Below, in pieces: positions 17,377 through 25,699 of a stretch of DNA of 64,000 bases. Every line of letters begins with the position of its first letter. Position 1 is the stretch's first letter. The DNA comes from Grifola frondosa (taxonomy: Eukaryota > Basidiomycota > Agaricomycetes > Polyporales > Grifolaceae), in NCBI GenBank assembly GCA_001683735.1, contig LUGG01000004.1:248001-312000 (forward strand), written 5' to 3'. The translations under genes and the position numbers were made by a program. Under the pieces are notes generated by a model. The model searched no databases. It was not told the origin of the DNA and saw only the letters and a program-made list of their open reading frames with translations.

Positions 17377-17690
17377 AGGGACTCGTGGTGAACATCTTGA
17401 AGATGCGCAGGAGTACTATTTTCCTGCCACGCCGGACGTTTTTCTTCTCGCCACGCGCACGCGATATACAGATCTTACGTTTCTACTCCGTTTCGCCCGA
17501 CATATATCCATCCTGTTCTCTTTCAAGTTGCCCCCGGATCGTCCTCATCTTCGTAGTTTATGGTGCATTCATACTTTCTTTCCGCGTATTCTACATTTAA
17601 CCCGTCTATATGTACGTGCTTGAGCACATACTGTCATGCATATGAGTGTTTGCAATTAGCATGCCAATTGGAATTTTCCACGATAAAAAG
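17377..17690. other. Intergenic segment between B56 and the tRNA-Val remnant
   Basis: This is likely the 3' untranslated region of the B56 gene and the left flank of the accessory island. No convincing coding frame is present. Near its right end the run of five A at 17686-17690 reads as TTTTT on the minus strand, a Pol III terminator in the right place for the adjacent tRNA 3' half. Confidence 0.4.
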
Positions 17691-17726
17691 TGGTTCCGCC
17701 CGGGCTCGAACCGGGGACCTCCTGTG
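17691..17726 (-). pseudogene. tRNA-Val 3'-half remnant, left copy of the direct repeat
   Basis: Read on the minus strand this is the 3' strand of an anticodon stem (ACAGG), a variable loop, a perfect 5-bp T arm with loop TTCGAGC, the acceptor strand CGGAACC and discriminator A, followed by TTTTT. It matches the 3' half of the intact tRNA at 25337-25436 at 35 of 36 positions. The matching 5' half (an acceptor strand GGTTYCG, D arm, 5' anticodon stem) is missing upstream, so this is not a working gene. The sequence just 5' of it, 17752-17765, repeats at the other end of the island. Confidence 0.75.
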
Positions 17727-18197
17727 CACGTGAGCCTATTACGTAAGCTGTACTACGTGTGAGTTCCTTTGGGACAGTTTGAATCTGCAACATCAAGATC
17801 AAAGTACAATATTGAATAGAAATATAATTCAACACACTCTTTTCACTTTGCATAATGGGTCAAAAATGTTAACCGAACCTGCTTTCACAAGAATTTGTGT
17901 TCATGCATGCACCATTGCCGGAGACGTCACAAGCAGTCCGTAATGTCACTGTGACAACCACTGTTCACTGCCGGAGTGAAGCAATGGCATGTCTTGTTCA
18001 GTACAAAGGCTGCTGTCTCAAACCAGGGACCTCCAGTGCACACTGACAATACATTGATTATGGAATACAACACTCTAGGGACAAACTAACTGATGACAAA
18101 AGGCGTGATAATACATGTAGTCTAAGCCTGCTGAATCACGGTTCCGGTTGAGGAGAGCCAACGTGCGATACACTCTAGTATGGATATGAGGGTCCAC
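17727..18197. other. Left-end non-coding segment of the island
   Basis: AT-rich spacer between the tRNA remnant and the stop of the unknown gene. It contains short perfect palindromes (for example TGTCACTGTGACA near 17945, TTCACT-AGTGAA near 17965) and a decayed copy of the tRNA T-arm segment at 18017-18041. No gene is seen. Confidence 0.4.
18017..18041 (-). repeat. Degenerate third copy of the tRNA-Val T-arm segment
   Basis: It matches 17705-17729 at 22 of 25 positions and includes the GTGCAC that is specific to the left remnant and absent from the intact tRNA. The changes break the T-stem pairing, so it is an old copy. It may mark an earlier end of the element or a tandem recombination event. 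Confidence 0.5.
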
Positions 18198-19598
18198 CTA
18201 CTCTGAAGGCACATTGGATGGATAGTCTGCAAGAAAGGCCTCCAAGTAATTAAAGAAGGTTTCATCCACTCTGTTGGCAATCTCCAGCAAGAGTTTGGTA
18301 GACCCCTCTTGAACGGCTGAGAGACAGTTTTGAGTGCCGTTCGATGGATAGACACGTGGAGTGTTTGTTATTAAGAGGTTGAGTAAAGTAGCAAAGTTGT
18401 GTGTGCCGTTGCGCAAGTTGGAGATACACCAGTGTGAATCCAACAGTACTGGGGTGCCAAACTATATAAATAGTGAGATCAGTACGATATCACTGTCCAT
18501 TCAGTGGCACTCACGTGAAGGTAGATATGCAGCAGTCGATTGCGTGCCTTGATGTCATTTTCAATGGAGCGCTTGAAAAGAGAATACTGTTTGCGATACT
18601 GTCGGTCTGTACGCTTGTCATTATCATCAAGAGAGTCAAAGCGCTTCAGCCAAAAGCCAGACTGATCCTCGGAAAAACACCAGCATAGAATTGCTGCTTG
18701 AACTGCATCCCGCCAGGACCGACTGCCTTGTCCGCAAAGTCATGAGCAAATTTGATAGCTTCAATCTTGAGAAAGAGCTTTTCGGAATATAGCTGGGTTT
18801 CCGTCATGGCATATGCATCTACCATGGTCTATATCATGCATATAACCACTGATAAGTACCACATCTAGTAGATATAGTAATCATTGTGATATACCTTCTG
18901 TCGCATCAGCGCTTTCGAGAGAAAGTCATCCTCCTCATCAACGTGTGCACTGCCGGTCAAGACATCAGACCAAGATGTGGGGGTAATTCCAATGGTAGCA
19001 GCCCATAATGCGTCCTAAGAGTGCCACATACAATTAGAAATTATACTACTGCATCACATAGTGTACTTACCCATTCCTGCTCGTTGACATTATTGGAATA
19101 CCCACGAAAAAGTCGGCGAAAAGCGGCTACTTCTTGTGCTTTGGTGGTTCCACCTTGTGGAAGAACACACTGCTTAAAGAACTCTGCTGGTAGAATCGAA
19201 TGCTCTCCGATGACCTCAAGAATGCTGTTGCATCTTGTTGTTGCATCAACAAGGGTCTTGCTCGGCGCCACTATCTGCTGGGATGTGTGGCTCTGCACAT
19301 CAGCTGGCACATCCTGTGTACGTATGCATATAGTCTTACATAGTCAGACAAAGAAGTAAAAGCACTGAAAACTCACCTGCGCTTCGTTCTCATCTTCTTC
19401 ATCAGAGCTTTCTTCTTGCTCTTTATCATGATCACCAACGAATTCATGTACAACCTTGCGAGCACATCGATGAAGTTGCCTGCGTCTTTTTTTGGTGTTC
19501 GGAGAGGCGGAATTACCAAGTGGATGACTGACTGCATAGCGCAAGACATTATTAAGGGTATTAATGACAGCAATATCAGAGTCAAGCTGAGGCAACAT
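18198..19598 (-). CDS. Unknown protein encoded downstream of the DUF3435 recombinase
   Basis: This protein of about 390 residues is built from five exons; introns have good gtgagt, gtaagt, gtatat and gtgagt donors. It begins MLPQLDSDIAVINTL, then has a basic patch (TKKRRRQLHRCARK), an acidic stretch (EESSDEEDENEAQ), and a helical body containing AAFRRLFRGYSNN, DALWAATIGITPTSW, SGFWLKRFDSLDDN and LLDSHWCISNL, ending NVPSE. I recognise no domain. The frame breaks at the run of A at 18673-18677; one extra base restores it. The start could lie upstream, because an open stretch precedes it in another frame. It shares strand and intergenic spacing (about 410 bp) with the recombinase, so it is probably element cargo or a mobility helper; that is inference. 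Confidence 0.6.
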
Positions 19599-20009
19599 TG
19601 TGGTTCAAGAAACAAGATATTATGATTGAGTGCGTGGTCAAAGATCAAGAAAGCTAGCTCAAAATGACGATCGCAACTTTCGATCATATATGTGACATGC
19701 TACCAGTGAAACTACTTTGAGCATATATGTTCTCTGACCATGACACTAGACCGCTATCTGGCCCAGATAAAATGCACAATATATTTTGTGGATTAAAAGT
19801 CACATGTATGACACTGTAATAACATCCTTTAAGAATACCGCAAACTGCCAGACAAAACAGAACAATGAAAACGCAGCACATGAGGTTGAGAAGACAACAT
19901 AAAGGAGGACAGACAATGAACATCTAGCAAGCACATCCAGACCTAGGGGCAAAGAGAGTCCACAGCAAGTCCAAGAGTCCACGTAAGTCCAAGAGTCCAA
20001 GCAAGTTCA

Positions 20010-23000
20010 TCAATCGTCCTTTTCAAATGGCGGTGCTGTCGCAGCCCATGTTGCAAAATCATGTGATGGTCCCCATATGCTGCGAGAGACTGATTCATCA
20101 CGAATTCTAAATGTTTGGTTCTTGCAAAGGTCAGGCATATGTTCGCGGATGTCATGAAATTGGCGACGATGGCTGGGACAATAATGCTTTGGCGGTCCTT
20201 TCGTATCAGATTTTCTGCACCTCTGATAGTAGTGTCAGCATATTAGTTATATGCAATGATCCATATAATCACCTTGCTAGGGCCGCTGGCTGAACTATCC
20301 GGAAGCCACAGGATCTTCTCACCAATGGTCTTCCTCGAGATTATGTCAAACATGCGGTATGCAGCAACTTCACGACAAGAAGCCTGGGTTGCATTACGTA
20401 TGTGGTCGAGGATGTTAACGTAGACAAGGTGACAACCGCAGCACCTCCAGTGCTCCTATAGAAATTATTTGGTTAAAAATTACAGCCAATATTTGCACAC
20501 ACACGTCACCTCAGTAGGTGAGATGCGTTTTTTCTTTCTCTGGCCTTGCACATTGTTATTGCTAGGACCTGCTATCGCTTCTGACTCTTGGGGATCAGTG
20601 AAAAATGTCTCGAGTGTGGACATATTAGATGCAGCTGGTAAACATCATAATAATGCACTCACCTTGTCGTGCATCCTCCTTGACGCAGCTTCACCTTCTC
20701 TATCTGATGTGTTCATCTCGCTGGTCTGATCACCCATCATATCTACCTCAGTATGGCTATTGACATCCATCTTGTTGTCCTTAGTGGGGAGTCTGAGCCG
20801 ACGTACGCGAACACATCGCTCTGTTCCGCAGATGGGCACTTGATGGTAACCTACCATATGGACTAAAAGTTCATGAGACGTAAATGAATTTGTGCCACAA
20901 CTTGGCACTGGACAGAGCATTGTCTGGCTGTCACCAACGATCATCGCGAGTTGCTTCCTGTGATATGAGAGATGATGCACAAATGCTTGAGTGCTCGCAA
21001 ATCTATTTTCACAATTTAATATTAGCCTAGCACAATGATAGAATCACGCACTGCATCATCCGGATAATCATAGATAACTCCTCGTCATAAACACACCATG
21101 GACATATCATTGGTGTAAAAGCGATGCCACTCTCGATATGTCCATGAAATTCTGGTCGCTTTCCACCAAAGCCTTCCTCAATATCAAACTCCACAGATGC
21201 CTGGGCTTCAAGAAGCCCAGTCGTAGATGGGGTCACATCGACATGATCGGTGAGTCGGACTGCAAAGGGTTGATAGAGAGTACCATAGTGTCCGATAAGG
21301 TGATCGTGCCATGCACGCTTGTCTCCAGATAAGTCCACATTCCTATTCAAACCATATTATGAGCAATATATGCAGTGTACATTAATTAAACATACCACGT
21401 ATCACAAAAATAACAGAATTGCACACGCGCTATCACCTCCACATTGATTGCATGTGCTTCTGCAAAGTGAACATTCCAATCGTCGCACTCATTCTGCCCA
21501 CACAGTACTCCATCGGCTATTTGCCATCGACATGATGGTGATCTAATCTGAGTATGCAGACTAGCCAGATGACGGTCGAGGTGTTTGAGGAAAGTCTTGC
21601 GATCTGAAAAGATTTCTTGCTTCTGTTTGCATGATAGCCATAGACACTGTCCAGGTACGTAGTTCTCATCTAGTGCTGCACTGGCATCGTTGATCTTCTG
21701 TTTCTGGAGGCACATGTGAATATGTGCCCCGACAGTCGTTCGTGGAAGATTCTGTGAGCTAAACTAGCTATGAGCAAAGATGACACTCATAATGATAAGC
21801 GAAAAATGTACCTGCAGATCAATCCACATACTGGACACTTGTTTTCCAGAGTAGGTGCCTCACCGGGATAACACTTTGGAAACGGACATGTAGGCATTTT
21901 GAGAAGCATTGTAATTGATGTGGAAAGGTGCTTTGAATCAGTCTCGACGACTTCGCTAGGATAAATGTGATGCAGAAAACTAGTATATGGATCATTTGAT
22001 GATGCCGTGGTGGAAATAGACCGGTTGCTGAAGCTGGCAGCTTCTGTGCCAGGGGAATTGAGGTTGCTCACATCGTTGCCTGAGAATGTCGCTGCCATCA
22101 TTTTAGTGGGCTTTTCAGGGGCCTACAATCATGTCAGTGTGTAGGTGACAAAGTTAATTGATAAAAATAGCTACTAATTTGTTTAACGCTCTAAAGGATG
22201 CCTTTGCAAAGTAGTTTTTGCGCATAATTTGGAGACGCTGGTCTTCTTCCCGCCGAAGTGTAGTATCTCTCTTCTGGGCCACCTGTTTGATCTCCTCACG
22301 TGTTTGTTCTATCCGTATGAGCAGGGAGGCATCATCATCTCTGCTGTTACCGGATGCAAGCTGATCACAGAGGTTTGAAACTTGGCGCTCCAACTAGCGG
22401 ACAAGGATGAGTAAGTTGATACCAACATATGCAAGAAATGGCCCACCTCCGCTTTACGTTCAAGAAGTGCAAGGATGACAGGGTCCGTGAGCAGAGCATT
22501 TCTCTCTGCTAATGTTAGCTGAGTGGGTGCATTGGGATCTAGGGTAGACGACATTTGGCCGATCGACTGTAAAACTAGTGTTCAGATTTGGTGGTCTCTA
22601 ACTCTGGGTTAAATGTACCTTGATAAAGCTTATTGCTTTCTTTCTCTGACCTCGCTCATCCCGCACTCCTTGAACATCAGTGGTTGATAGACGACTCTGG
22701 TAATGATTCTGTGTTTGTGCTATTAGTAATGTATGATCATGGACCATTGGAGAAACGCACATAAAAAGCTGACGACTTTGGAGTGTGACCCAACAACAAC
22801 TTGCGCTGCTCTTCTGTGAGCTCAGAACTCCATGTGTTGGCAGCGCCACGACGAAAGCAGTATGGCGTCATGTGGGCTATATACATTAGGATCAGTGCAG
22901 AATTTACAAGAGAAAACGAAAATTTGTACCTTCAAACCCAGCCAATTCGCTGTAAAGTGCAAGTAGCGATAGATACCGATAGTAAGGAAGAGGCTTATTG

Positions 23001-24086
23001 GCAGAAATTCGCCAGCCATTGGGTGATCGCTCCTCATTGCGAAGGAGTGGAAGTGCCTTCTTGTCGTCTTTGATTGTTAAATGATGTGTATATTCAGGTA
23101 TAAAGGCGAAAATCTGGTCAATGGTCTGAACATCTTCGAAAACATTGTCTTCCAGTGCCATGGCAAGGTACAGCATGGCGGGACAAGCAGAACGACGGTC
23201 TGATGACTCCTCGAAGATGATGAACTCTTTGTAAAAGCTGTCATCGTCACGATGGCCCTTTAAAAGCTGTATGCGGATAACGATGGCAATAACCACTGTT
23301 GTTTCATCGCAGGGGATAATCCACACGGAGTGATCACCATGGGTGATTGCCTGGTCAGAGTGGCGATATCCGGAGGCCTCGACCAATGCTCCGGGGCGCT
23401 CTCCTGAAACTGCAGATAATAAGCTTGTGTAGATAAGTTGAAGTTGCATACGAGAGGTGCGAAAGTGGGTGCTGTCGTGCCACATGGCATGGATAAGGAT
23501 ATTAACGTCGACCATATCAGCAACCGGTTTCTCTCGAATTTTGGTGGTAAGCTGAACAATCATGTCTTCAGACTGCAGGTATGCCAGAACTTGTATGCGG
23601 GTCTCGGGTGGCAGCAATAGACCTGCATAGAAAGCCCAGAAGCCCAAGAATGTGCGCACATAGGAATTAAGAGTGTTTTTCGAAATATATGCATCGAGGC
23701 GTCCGACCAATGACATTGCCATCCAGCGTACAAATTCTTTGATATGCTCTAGTGCATATATCAATGCATATATCAATGCATATATCAATGTATAAGATAG
23801 GAAATGGCATACCGGCACTAGGTATCATGCAACCGGGGACAATCTTTGTGCTCAAGTATGCGTATTTCTGGGCAATGACTGGTGGCTTTGATTGGTAATA
23901 GGTTACGAATTCCGTCCAGTATTTGAGTATGAGTGCATGATTTTTGAGTGTTGCTTTGGCAAGCTTCTTGTGATGATGAACATTTAGCGGTTCCTCAAAG
24001 CGAGCATGCAGTTCAGCGTCTGCAAGGCGTTGTTCGAGAACTTGTGCGCGAGTGAGACGATCATTTGTGAGAAAGCTGGAGGCCAT
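20010..24086 (-). CDS. DUF3435 tyrosine recombinase (Starship captain-like), with C-terminal coiled coil and Cys/His fingers
   Basis: DUF3435 proteins are a tyrosine-recombinase superfamily that includes the captain transposases of Starships. The first about 90 residues (MASSFLTNDRLTRAQVLEQR, KNHALILKYWTEFV) resemble an N-terminal DNA-binding region. The catalytic domain contains the box I Arg in SGERPGALVEASGY near 23398, FIIFEE...CPAMLYLAMAL, then HMTPYCFRRGAANTW, LLGHTP and the tyrosine region SSAFYNHYQ, split by an intron at about 22760. All expected R, H/R, GH and Y elements are present. A coiled coil follows (LERQVSNLCDQLAS to EDQRLQIMRKNY). About 600 C-terminal residues have many Cys/His pairs: CPFPKC, CPVCGLIC, CPWC, CPVPSC with H-x4-H, CCGCH, and HYCPSHRRQFHDIREH. 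Thirteen exons join in phase with no frame break, for about 1,140 residues. The start is the first Met, 1.25 kb from the intact tRNA. Family assignment is firm; activity is not shown. Confidence 0.85.
23753..23797. repeat. 12-bp tandem repeat inside the first intron of the recombinase gene
   Basis: About three and a half copies of gcatatatcaat lie head to tail, ending in a variant copy. They fall between the gtatgc donor and the cactag acceptor of intron 1, so they do not alter the protein. The unit is AT-rich with a TATA core. Confidence 0.85.
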
Positions 24087-24375
24087 GGCAAGACATGGAG
24101 CAAGTTGCCGCTTAAGAAGTGAGAGCCTGTGACAGTGCTACTGGCAATGACATGCATTATAATGCGAAGAGTTGGGGCTGTAGTACGTACATGACAAGTC
24201 ACAACAACACATAACAACATGAAAGACAGGACGAGCGTTGTGCAACAACATAAGCGCCCATGCAGACCGAGGTGGTTCTGGTTAATTCATGGTTAATTAG
24301 GGTCTGATAGTGTGATACGTGTCACAACGTGGTGGCACCAGCTCACTTTCATGGCAATGGACAGTGTTTTTTTTG

Positions 24376-24394
24376 GCCCGGTCAATGACCGGGC
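24376..24394. repeat. Perfect 9-bp inverted repeat
   Basis: Arms GCCCGGTCA and TGACCGGGC with a single A between, preceded by a run of eight T. It lies 290 bp upstream of the recombinase start, where an operator for autoregulation or a recombinase-binding site would be expected. Function is inferred only from shape and place. Confidence 0.5.
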
Positions 24395-25180
24395 AGCCCA
24401 GCAAGTCAGTACAAGGGTATATTGGAACTCTAGGTAATCAGAAACCACAATCAAAAGGCGCTCGGAGTAATTGATCGACTCCAAAATAATGTGCACGCAT
24501 CGCCTGTGATGTGGATGAACGTGCCCGTGCATGATATGCAGAGAGGGGGGATACCTATTCCGTGAGGTATATGGAGGCAGGGCATTTCAGCGCCAGTGGG
24601 GGCTCGGGGTCAGCAGTCGTGGATGCATCGTTGTCTGCGAGGTTGAGGTTGTCTGTCCTGAGGTTGAGCAGTCCAGCGAGCATAGCTCCGGAAATGTCGC
24701 GGGTGTTGTCTTGCCAGTGGTGGAGGATGCGCAGGCCATAAAGCTCAGGCTGCAGAAGACGCTCTTGCCGCTCCTGATGCTGACCGTCTCAGATGCATAA
24801 GGGCGCAGAGAGTCGGTGGAGGTGAGAGAGATGGAGGGATTCGGATGCTGCGGGCACGAGGTATAGGTGTTGGATGGGGAGCTGGGAAGGGTTGCATGGG
24901 TATAACATCCCAGTGAGAGCGAAAATGCTCGCCGGCTTGCATACTGTGCCACGCTGGCCCCAGAACGATCAGCGGCGCATGGTCATTTGACAAACAATGT
25001 CACGTACAATGAACTTGAGGTATGGCGAGTATTCGCTCCAAGGGGTCATCCGAGTCAGTGATACTGTGAGATGCATTGTATAGTGAGTCACACCAGAGAT
25101 ACGAAATATGACACACGCAGTGAACAAGTCGGATCTGTCCAGACAGTACCAGTGCTCGAGATTGGGCATGGCTCATGCAA

Positions 25181-25210
25181 GCGCACACAATCCCGAGGGA
25201 TTGTGTGCGC
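25181..25210. repeat. Perfect 30-bp palindrome near the right element end
   Basis: Two 14-bp arms (GCGCACACAATCCC and its exact complement) flank the dinucleotide GA. It lies 127 bp from the 3' end of the intact tRNA-Val, between tRNA and recombinase. A perfect inverted repeat of this size in fungal DNA is uncommon by chance. It could be a recombinase-binding or regulatory site, or a terminator-like hairpin. Confidence 0.7.
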
Positions 25211-25336
25211 CTGAAGTCGTCGCATCCGGCGCTCAGGTCATGCGCACCCGCCGACCAAACTTTGAGCCCAATTAAGCGCGCTCAAGGTTCGTACGGCGGG
25301 CGCACGTGACCAACTTGGGTGACTAGAAAAAGTAAG

Positions 25337-25436
25337 TGGTCCCGCCCGGGCTCGAACCGGGGACCTCCTGTGATCCAGGTCACACAATATGCCACACTGT
25401 GAAACAGACGTGATGAACCAACTACACTACAGGACC
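25337..25436 (-). tRNA. tRNA-Val(CAC) with a 25-nt intron
   Basis: The minus strand folds as a complete tRNA: acceptor GGTCCTG/CGGGACC (one T-G pair), D arm with the GTGTAGTTGGTTC A-box region, anticodon stem TCTGT/ACAGG, loop TTCACA...C, variable AGGTC, T stem CCCGG/CCGGG with loop TTCGAGC, and discriminator A. The anticodon is CAC (valine, codon GUG). A 25-nt intron sits at the canonical place after position 37 and can pair with the anticodon through its GTGTG. A run of five T follows the gene closely, as expected for Pol III termination. It appears fully functional. It lies inside, or forms the right boundary of, the accessory island. Confidence 0.92.
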
Positions 25437-25541
25437 AACATTTGTATTATTAGAGTTATCTATATCCTATTATTCAATTCAAGTTGCTAGTATTCACATT
25501 ATGGGACGGTGGTCAGCGTGATTGCATCATCAACCTAAAAA

Positions 25542-25573
25542 GGCAGGCATTCTATGGCCATAGAATGCCTGCC
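25542..25573. repeat. Perfect 32-bp palindrome, extended by A4/T4
   Basis: Arms of 16 bp (GGCAGGCATTCTATGG and complement) meet at the centre GG|CC with no spacer. The symmetry extends through AAAA and TTTT after one bulged C. It lies between the intact tRNA-Val and the 5'-half remnant. Near-perfect symmetry suggests a recent or selected structure, perhaps a small foldback element. Confidence 0.75.
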
Positions 25574-25637
25574 CTTTTGGGATTTTCAACGCTGGCCGTG
25601 CGATCAGCTCCTGTAATTGGTCAGCTCTCATGTGGAA

Positions 25638-25685
25638 GTTGGTCAACTCACACGTAGTGACCCGACTACGAGTGAGTTAACCAAC
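25638..25685. repeat. 48-bp imperfect inverted repeat built from the tRNA-Val D-loop sequence
   Basis: Two 21-nt arms, 19 of 21 complementary, flank GACCCG. The right arm overlaps the tRNA-Val 5'-half remnant. The left arm contains a 14-nt block (25645-25658) identical, in reverse complement, to 17752-17765 beside the left remnant. The right arm carries the same block in the direct orientation with one mismatch (25665-25678). Confidence 0.7.
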
Positions 25686-25699
25686 TACACCACGAAACC
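25678..25699 (-). pseudogene. tRNA-Val 5'-half remnant
   Basis: The minus strand reads GGTTTCGTGGTGTAGTTGGTTA, the 5' acceptor strand and D-loop region typical of tRNA-Val. The anticodon arm, T arm and 3' acceptor strand do not follow. Its acceptor strand pairs fully (one T-G) with CGGAACC of the left 3'-half remnant. It pairs less well with the intact tRNA's own 3' strand. Confidence 0.7.

Follow-up and report, generated by a model that had tools for sequence, protein, structure and literature searches.

Compact DUF3435 tyrosine-recombinase elements bordered by tRNA sequences in the basidiomycete Grifola frondosa

The DNA analysed in this work is a 64-kb window of the genome of Grifola frondosa (maitake; Polyporales, Agaricomycetes; 39.06 Mb in 64 contigs), corresponding to C4:248001-312000, and coordinates given without a contig prefix are positions in this window. 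Within it lies an 8.0-kb element (17691-25699) holding two genes, one for a captain-like tyrosine recombinase of the DUF3435 family (PF11917) and one orphan, here called gene 2, and bordered on its two sides by halves of valine transfer RNA (tRNA-Val).

The left border is a tRNA-Val 3' half (17691-17725, minus strand) that extends from the 3' strand of the anticodon stem to the discriminator A and is adjoined by a T-run on its sense strand, seen as the plus-strand A-run at 17685-17689. The right border is an outer tRNA-Val 5' half (25665-25699, minus strand), at the last position of which BLAST similarity to related loci on C7 and C2 ends. Between the borders lie, from left to right and all on the minus strand, gene 2 (A0H81_04196; 18198-19598, several exons, stop placed by eye), the recombinase (20010-24086, about 13 exons, 3' end placed by eye against the annotated C7 protein P0001), the decayed 5' part of an oxysterol-binding-protein gene (24527-25180), whose counterpart lies downstream of tRNA-Val on C2, and an intact tRNA-Val(CAC) gene with a 25-nt intron (25336-25436). 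The intact gene was the only tRNA called in the window by ARAGORN with introns allowed, and scored 49.5 bits in Rfam against a gathering score of 29. A default ARAGORN scan of the window returned 0 tRNA genes, and a scan with introns and a lowered score threshold returned 471 calls, which were disregarded.

An earlier reading of this DNA, made from the sequence only, had described an intact tRNA-Val(CAC) next to a DUF3435 recombinase reading inward and a 3'-half copy of the same tRNA, in the same orientation, at the other end. Both descriptions held: the two copies form a 97% identical repeat (17688-17726 against 25334-25372, 7646 bp from start to start, same orientation). The right border had been placed at the intact tRNA and was moved outward, to the outer 5' half, which makes the intact tRNA cargo inside the right end; that half had gone undescribed in the earlier reading, even though the stretch it named already ended at 25699. 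Outward of the intact tRNA, similarity among C4, C7 and C2 extends a further 200-263 bp to 25699 (one of these comparisons took in the inner part of the C2 stretch only). It crosses a palindrome (25534-25581; 24-nt arms, 92% complementary) that belongs to a right-end module and is common to C4, C7, C2 and a relic on C10. Lying upstream of the carried tRNA-Val, the palindrome is possibly a regulatory site or an accessory site for recombination; Rfam microRNA matches to it fell far under their gathering scores and were rejected.

Both ends of the C4 element carry a 14-bp terminal inverted repeat, the left copy (17752-17765, plus strand) having an exact partner at 25645-25658 (14/14 matched, a score reached by 0 of 3000 shuffles). 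The right copy is also the inner arm of the right junction (25645-25678), in which two 14-bp arms, 13/14 complementary, are separated by a 6-bp spacer, and 0 of 3000 shuffles were as good as its 22-column match. In its layout this junction resembles a tyrosine-recombinase core site, such sites having been described with arms of 11-13 bp and spacers of 6-8 bp (PMC3212892). A weaker third tRNA-Val 3'-half motif (18017-18041, 88%) lies inside the left end, is present in the C7 copy too, and is perhaps an older junction. The left flank of the element contains a gene for a PP2A B56 regulatory subunit (PF01603; 15144-16455).

The recombinase begins 1.6 kb inside the right border, past the tRNA and the oxysterol-binding-protein piece, and reads inward. 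Its DUF3435 domain was matched with an E-value of 1.2e-43 in the spliced, hand-adjusted C4 model and of 2.8e-43 in P0001 (C7; annotated as A0H81_07058), and a direct genomic match to PF11917 (E 1.2e-13) was obtained at 22925-23485 on the minus strand (C4:270925-271485). The model of about 13 exons encodes 1000-1150 residues, with the tyrosine recombinase (DUF3435) at the N-terminus, a helical stretch, perhaps a coiled coil, in addition, and a C-terminus that by eye is zinc-finger-like and rich in Cys/His pairs; the public entry labels the protein C2H2-type, and no Pfam zinc-finger match was obtained on the C4 model or on P0001. AlphaFold prediction of P0001 without an alignment gave a mean pLDDT (predicted local distance difference test score) of 35.3, with values above 50 only in the helical stretch near residues 484-556. 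Seven residues (R209, K255, Y370, R373, H395, Y403 and Y406) are invariant in 3/3 recombinase copies of the genome and, going by family roles, we take them to be candidate catalytic residues, of which Y403 or Y406 would be the nucleophile. Homologue searches with a single sequence and with a three-sequence profile returned one hit each, from G. frondosa only, among the 7991 candidates scored, which were those with most words in common, a scope in which distant relatives may be missed; a profile search of the PDB returned one hit, which at E 0.4 is not meaningful.

Gene 2 was found by genome search only at the three element loci described below. A homologue search returned two hits, both from G. 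frondosa, and no relative elsewhere; a DUF4800 match (E 7.5e-4) lay under the curated cut-off and was not used, so that gene 2 has no convincing domain. Between the C4 and C7 copies, 10 recombinase exons were compared and the aligned parts were gap-free in 10/10 (four were not aligned to their very ends). The ratio of nonsynonymous to synonymous substitution rates (dN/dS) was 0.21 over 970 recombinase codons; for gene 2, compared in its first four exons (241 codons), it was 0.12. Both genes thus show purifying selection.

DUF3435 loci were sought across the genome with PF11917 (seven candidates, 7/7 scored), and three were found: C4:270925-271485, C7:1286991-1287554 and C10:262492-263052. All three are flanked by tRNA copies or halves, and each holds the recombinase together with gene 2. 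A genome search with Rfam tRNA models, in which 63 of 1183 candidates were scored, gave 58 matches and hence at least 58 tRNA genes. With 58 (a lower bound) to 400 tRNA genes, the chance of finding a tRNA within 12 kb at 3/3 loci was roughly estimated at 6e-6 to 1.5e-3, a figure that leaves the matched halves and the shared ends uncounted.

The C7 element extends from about C7:1273665, at its 3' half, to C7:1289712 (16 kb). It is 84.8% identical to the C4 element over 17685-19954 and 87.4% over 19950-24450, and a 29-nt stretch of the 3' half is identical between the C4 left end and C7:1273671-1273699. It is twice as long as the C4 element because a long terminal repeat (LTR) retrotransposon is nested in it (C7:1275980-1284014). 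The retrotransposon is Gypsy-like by eye from its open frames, with a 5-bp target duplication seen by eye at the junctions, and its insertion is recent, given that its 503-bp LTRs are 99.8% identical. By BLAST, similarity between the C4 and C7 elements ends at the tRNA 3' end and T-run on one side and at the tRNA 5' start on the other, and no similarity between the flanks was found when 30 kb of C7 was compared with the 64-kb window. The two copies thus share their tRNA-Val borders in unrelated surroundings. The C7 ends showed no clean direct repeat of the target.

The third, diverged element lies at a different tRNA. On C10, an intact tRNA-Glu(TTC) gene whose intron measures 34 nt (C10:259766-259875) is followed 11.2 kb away, in the same orientation, by a tRNA-Glu 5' half with intron (C10:271064-271137), and gene 2 and a recombinase 42% identical in protein to that of C4 lie between these tRNA ends. 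By eye, the C10 ends share a 13-bp direct repeat containing the 3' stem of the tRNA-Glu anticodon. A palindrome lies near each end, different from the C4 right-end palindrome. A tRNA-Glu search of the genome found nine places, namely the C10 gene, its half and seven others, and because six of these seven are intact intron-bearing tRNA-Glu genes (the seventh was called tRNA-Thr), the intron is native and was not made by the element. The proposal that a compact two-gene DUF3435 element occupies a tRNA-Val locus in a basidiomycete was borne out in that its relatives in the genome have tRNA ends as well, tRNA-Val at both ends on C7 and tRNA-Glu on C10; a lack of such sequences beside the other recombinase copies had been named as grounds for giving the proposal up.

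Decayed remains of elements were found at three further places. One is a Val-type right end that includes a decayed 3' half and an oxysterol-binding-protein piece (C10:292484-292981), one is a Glu-type right end (C10:294584-294866, within 294375-294876), and one is a left end (C2:2627631-2627841). The two right-end relics on C10 are about 2 kb apart, 21-24 kb from the C10 element, and to the eye seem to hold many C-to-T and G-to-A changes.

A separate C2 locus carries the outer 5' half, the right-end module, the palindrome and an intact tRNA-Val, with no DUF3435 match. The oxysterol-binding-protein piece of the C4 element is 72.9% identical over 765 columns to C2:2418587-2419343, and an open frame of the C2 gene matches PF01237 (E 9.4e-16). 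We read this locus as either the donor or a relic. A genome search with the tRNA-Val gene found five places, with intact genes on C4, C2 and C7 and a 3' half only on C4 and C7; the C4 intact gene matches the C7 copy at 88% and the C2 copy at 93%.

The best explanation of these results taken together, to which we assign a probability of about 0.75, is that G. frondosa has a small family of DNA elements that encode a tyrosine recombinase and insert into tRNA genes, at the anticodon arm or the intron. For the Val copies, insertion would have broken a single host tRNA-Val gene and left the two border halves. The recombinase would recognise the tRNA 5' half, from the D arm to the anticodon stem, and an excised circle would integrate by strand exchange in the anticodon loop, which would part the gene's two promoter boxes, A and B. 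By the usual layout of tRNA genes, the A box would lie at one end of the element, and the B box, with the T-run, at the opposite end. The whole tRNA-Val(CAC) carried inside the right end would compensate for the split gene. Its probable source is a C2-like locus, from which it would have been taken up along with the beginning of the neighbouring oxysterol-binding-protein gene before moving with the element.

The stronger evidence for a split gene is that the borders of the shared block coincide with tRNA ends at two loci whose flanks differ; the pairing of the halves adds modest evidence. The outer 5' half includes the 5' strand of the anticodon stem and goes no further, which is plain in C7 and C2, whereas its last part is altered in C4. 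The left 3' half opens with the opposite strand of the stem, which would place the break in the host gene within the anticodon loop. By eye, the two outer halves jointly give each tRNA segment once, the loop and intron excepted. The acceptor strands of the outer 5' halves are GGTTTCG (C4), GGTTTTG (C7) and GGTTCTG (C2), that of the left 3' half is CGGAACC (C4 and C7), and those of the inner tRNA are GGTCCTG and CGGGACC. Joining the outer 5' with the left 3' strand gives an acceptor stem of 6 Watson-Crick pairs and 1 GU pair in C4 and of 5+2 in C7, against 5+2 and 4+3, respectively, when the outer 5' strand is joined with the inner 3' strand. In 3/3 cases tested, the outer 5' half paired better with the left 3' half than with the inner 3' half by one pair. 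The inner tRNA is self-paired 6+1, and its 5' strand with the left 3' strand gives 5+1 plus one mismatch.

Several observations weigh against the reading set out above. Every copy, border and relic comparison was made within one G. frondosa genome assembly, and the acceptor-stem preference amounts to one pair per copy, a Watson-Crick pair replacing a GU pair. When the outer halves were joined, tRNA-shaped calls were obtained in 8/8 joins for C4 (four being tRNA-Tyr calls that require a nested intron, which is implausible) and in 6/8 joins for C7, none of them Val at either locus; the lack of a Val call is attributed to loss of the anticodon loop, and the join test itself discriminates little because a C2-C7 chimera of halves also gave 8/8. 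Neither a terminal inverted repeat (a score reached by 1087 of 3000 shuffles) nor a right junction of paired arms was found in C7, where none of the three end comparisons beat shuffles (839, 1087 and 2721 of 3000 reached the scores), so that either the C7 ends are decayed or the C4 ends are altered, and the C2 end comparison is weak (82 of 3000 shuffles reached its score). The synonymous divergence (dS) between C4 and C7, 0.31 for the recombinase and 0.22 for gene 2, makes the copies old, and a 1-bp frame difference separates their gene 2 sequences near 18688, after the first four exons. The C10 recombinase is inverted relative to that of C4, and nearly 5 kb towards the C10 right end (about C10:266200-270900) is unexplained, a 102-bp part of it recurring on C3, C13 and C32 at 87%.

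One alternative, which we consider unlikely, gives the element the anatomy of a bacterial genomic island. The element would then run from 17.7 to 25.3 kb and would have supplied the 3' half of the intact tRNA, and the outer 5' half would be an older, unrelated remnant. That the intact tRNA points the same way as the left 3' half fits such an arrangement, as does the presence on C2 of an outer 5' half and an intact tRNA without a recombinase. The island-like organisation proposed in the sequence-only reading is approached most nearly by the C10 element, where an intact tRNA-Glu marks one end and the displaced copy at the far end is a 5' half. It does not fit C4 and C7, because there the shared block continues beyond the intact gene as far as the outer 5' half; a host-gene fragment also stands between the intact tRNA and the recombinase, and the acceptor stems slightly favour joining the outer 5' half with the left 3' half. 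Somewhat less probable again is a duplicated unit without tRNA targeting, in which the whole block, tRNA halves included, would have spread by segmental duplication or the halves would be the element's own ends. That the outer 5' half and right-end module are common to three loci would follow from this, whereas borders on the tRNA 5' start and on the 3' end and T-run within unrelated flanks at C4 and C7, a C10 element at a different tRNA (Glu), and intron-bearing tRNA-Glu genes elsewhere without an element speak against it. A solo DUF3435 gene beside coincidental tRNA fragments, for which it may be said that fungal DUF3435 genes are more usually solo than in an element (PMC12134995), is very improbable given the chance estimate above and is contradicted by C7 and C10.

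If the elements do insert into tRNA-Val and carry a replacement, they may also have taken over the host tRNA, a more tentative proposal which we think somewhat less likely to be right than wrong. Decoding by tRNA-Val(CAC) may by now rely on copies that the elements carry or that are linked to them, each insertion destroying a gene and repaying it. A tRNA-Val(CAC) 3'-half pattern with up to three mismatches had five genomic matches (reversed-pattern control, 0), namely the intact genes on C4, C2 and C7 and the left halves on C4 and C7, and 5/5 lie at element loci, the C2 one beside a right-end relic. The corresponding 5'-half pattern, also with up to three mismatches, matched 14 places (reversed-pattern control, 2), these being the three outer halves and 11 others of two sequence types. 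The latter are taken to be other tRNA genes, and at least three of them coincide with Rfam tRNA matches. That the three intact genes are the whole genomic supply of tRNA-Val(CAC) rests on this assembly and on these pattern searches. If true, such dependence makes the element hard to lose, and it can be tested directly, given that tRNA-Val(CAC) apparently has no free-standing copy.

In bacteria and archaea, genomic islands and prophages commonly place a tyrosine recombinase beside a tRNA gene and a partial tRNA at the far end, with the crossover often in the anticodon arm. The G. frondosa elements differ in being eukaryotic and nuclear and in using another recombinase family, and the Val copies would differ further in splitting the host gene and carrying a whole tRNA. 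We know of no eukaryotic nuclear element that inserts into tRNA genes with a captain-type recombinase, and no report of a tRNA-targeting Starship or captain was found among open-licence papers.

Among fungal tyrosine-recombinase DNA elements, CryptonF shares with the present elements a proposed circle route and is known in the basidiomycete Cryptococcus, but it is described as combining a tyrosine recombinase with GCR1_C, and its direct repeats are of 4 or 6 bp, terminal inverted repeats being absent (PMC3212892). No GCR1_C match was obtained in searches up to E 5 for the C4 recombinase model and up to E 10 for P0001, which places the elements outside CryptonF.

The sequence-only reading had described captains as known from large Starships of the Pezizomycotina; the premise that they are confined to that group is outdated by the Starships of Tremella fuciformis (PMC13066641). 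Those elements likewise show captain-type recombinases in the Basidiomycota, but the eight reported from six genomes measure 41,942-605,797 bp, and the available text names no tRNA target for them (PMC13066641). Starships in general are given as 15 to about 700 kb (PMC12134995), and terminal inverted repeats were present in 18 of 20 in one study (PMC12153272). The closest likeness is to the 5S ribosomal DNA (rDNA)-targeting Starships (Enterprise-family Osiris), which are predicted to fragment the 5S gene and share with the G. frondosa element a DUF3435 recombinase reading inward from one end, a short target gene predicted to be fragmented and, in the C4 copy, a terminal inverted repeat (PMC12153272). 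Starships targeting 5S rDNA and Starships in a basidiomycete are thus already published. The present element differs in its size of about 8 kb, in its probable tRNA target, in having one orphan gene besides the recombinase, in carrying an intact tRNA, and in the long Cys/His-rich C-terminus of its recombinase. Like a Starship, the C4 element has a DUF3435 captain near one end reading inward; it lacks the large size with variable cargo, having two genes in 8.0 kb. Functionally, it is similar to a Starship captain whose substrate is a tRNA gene. If so compact an element does split a tRNA gene that has an intron and bring a whole replacement with it, the targets of captains would extend from 5S rDNA to tRNA genes. 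Genes for 5S rRNA and for tRNAs are both transcribed by RNA polymerase III (Pol III), and the two targets together would suggest a captain preference for Pol III genes. So small an element would also offer a system for testing captain chemistry.

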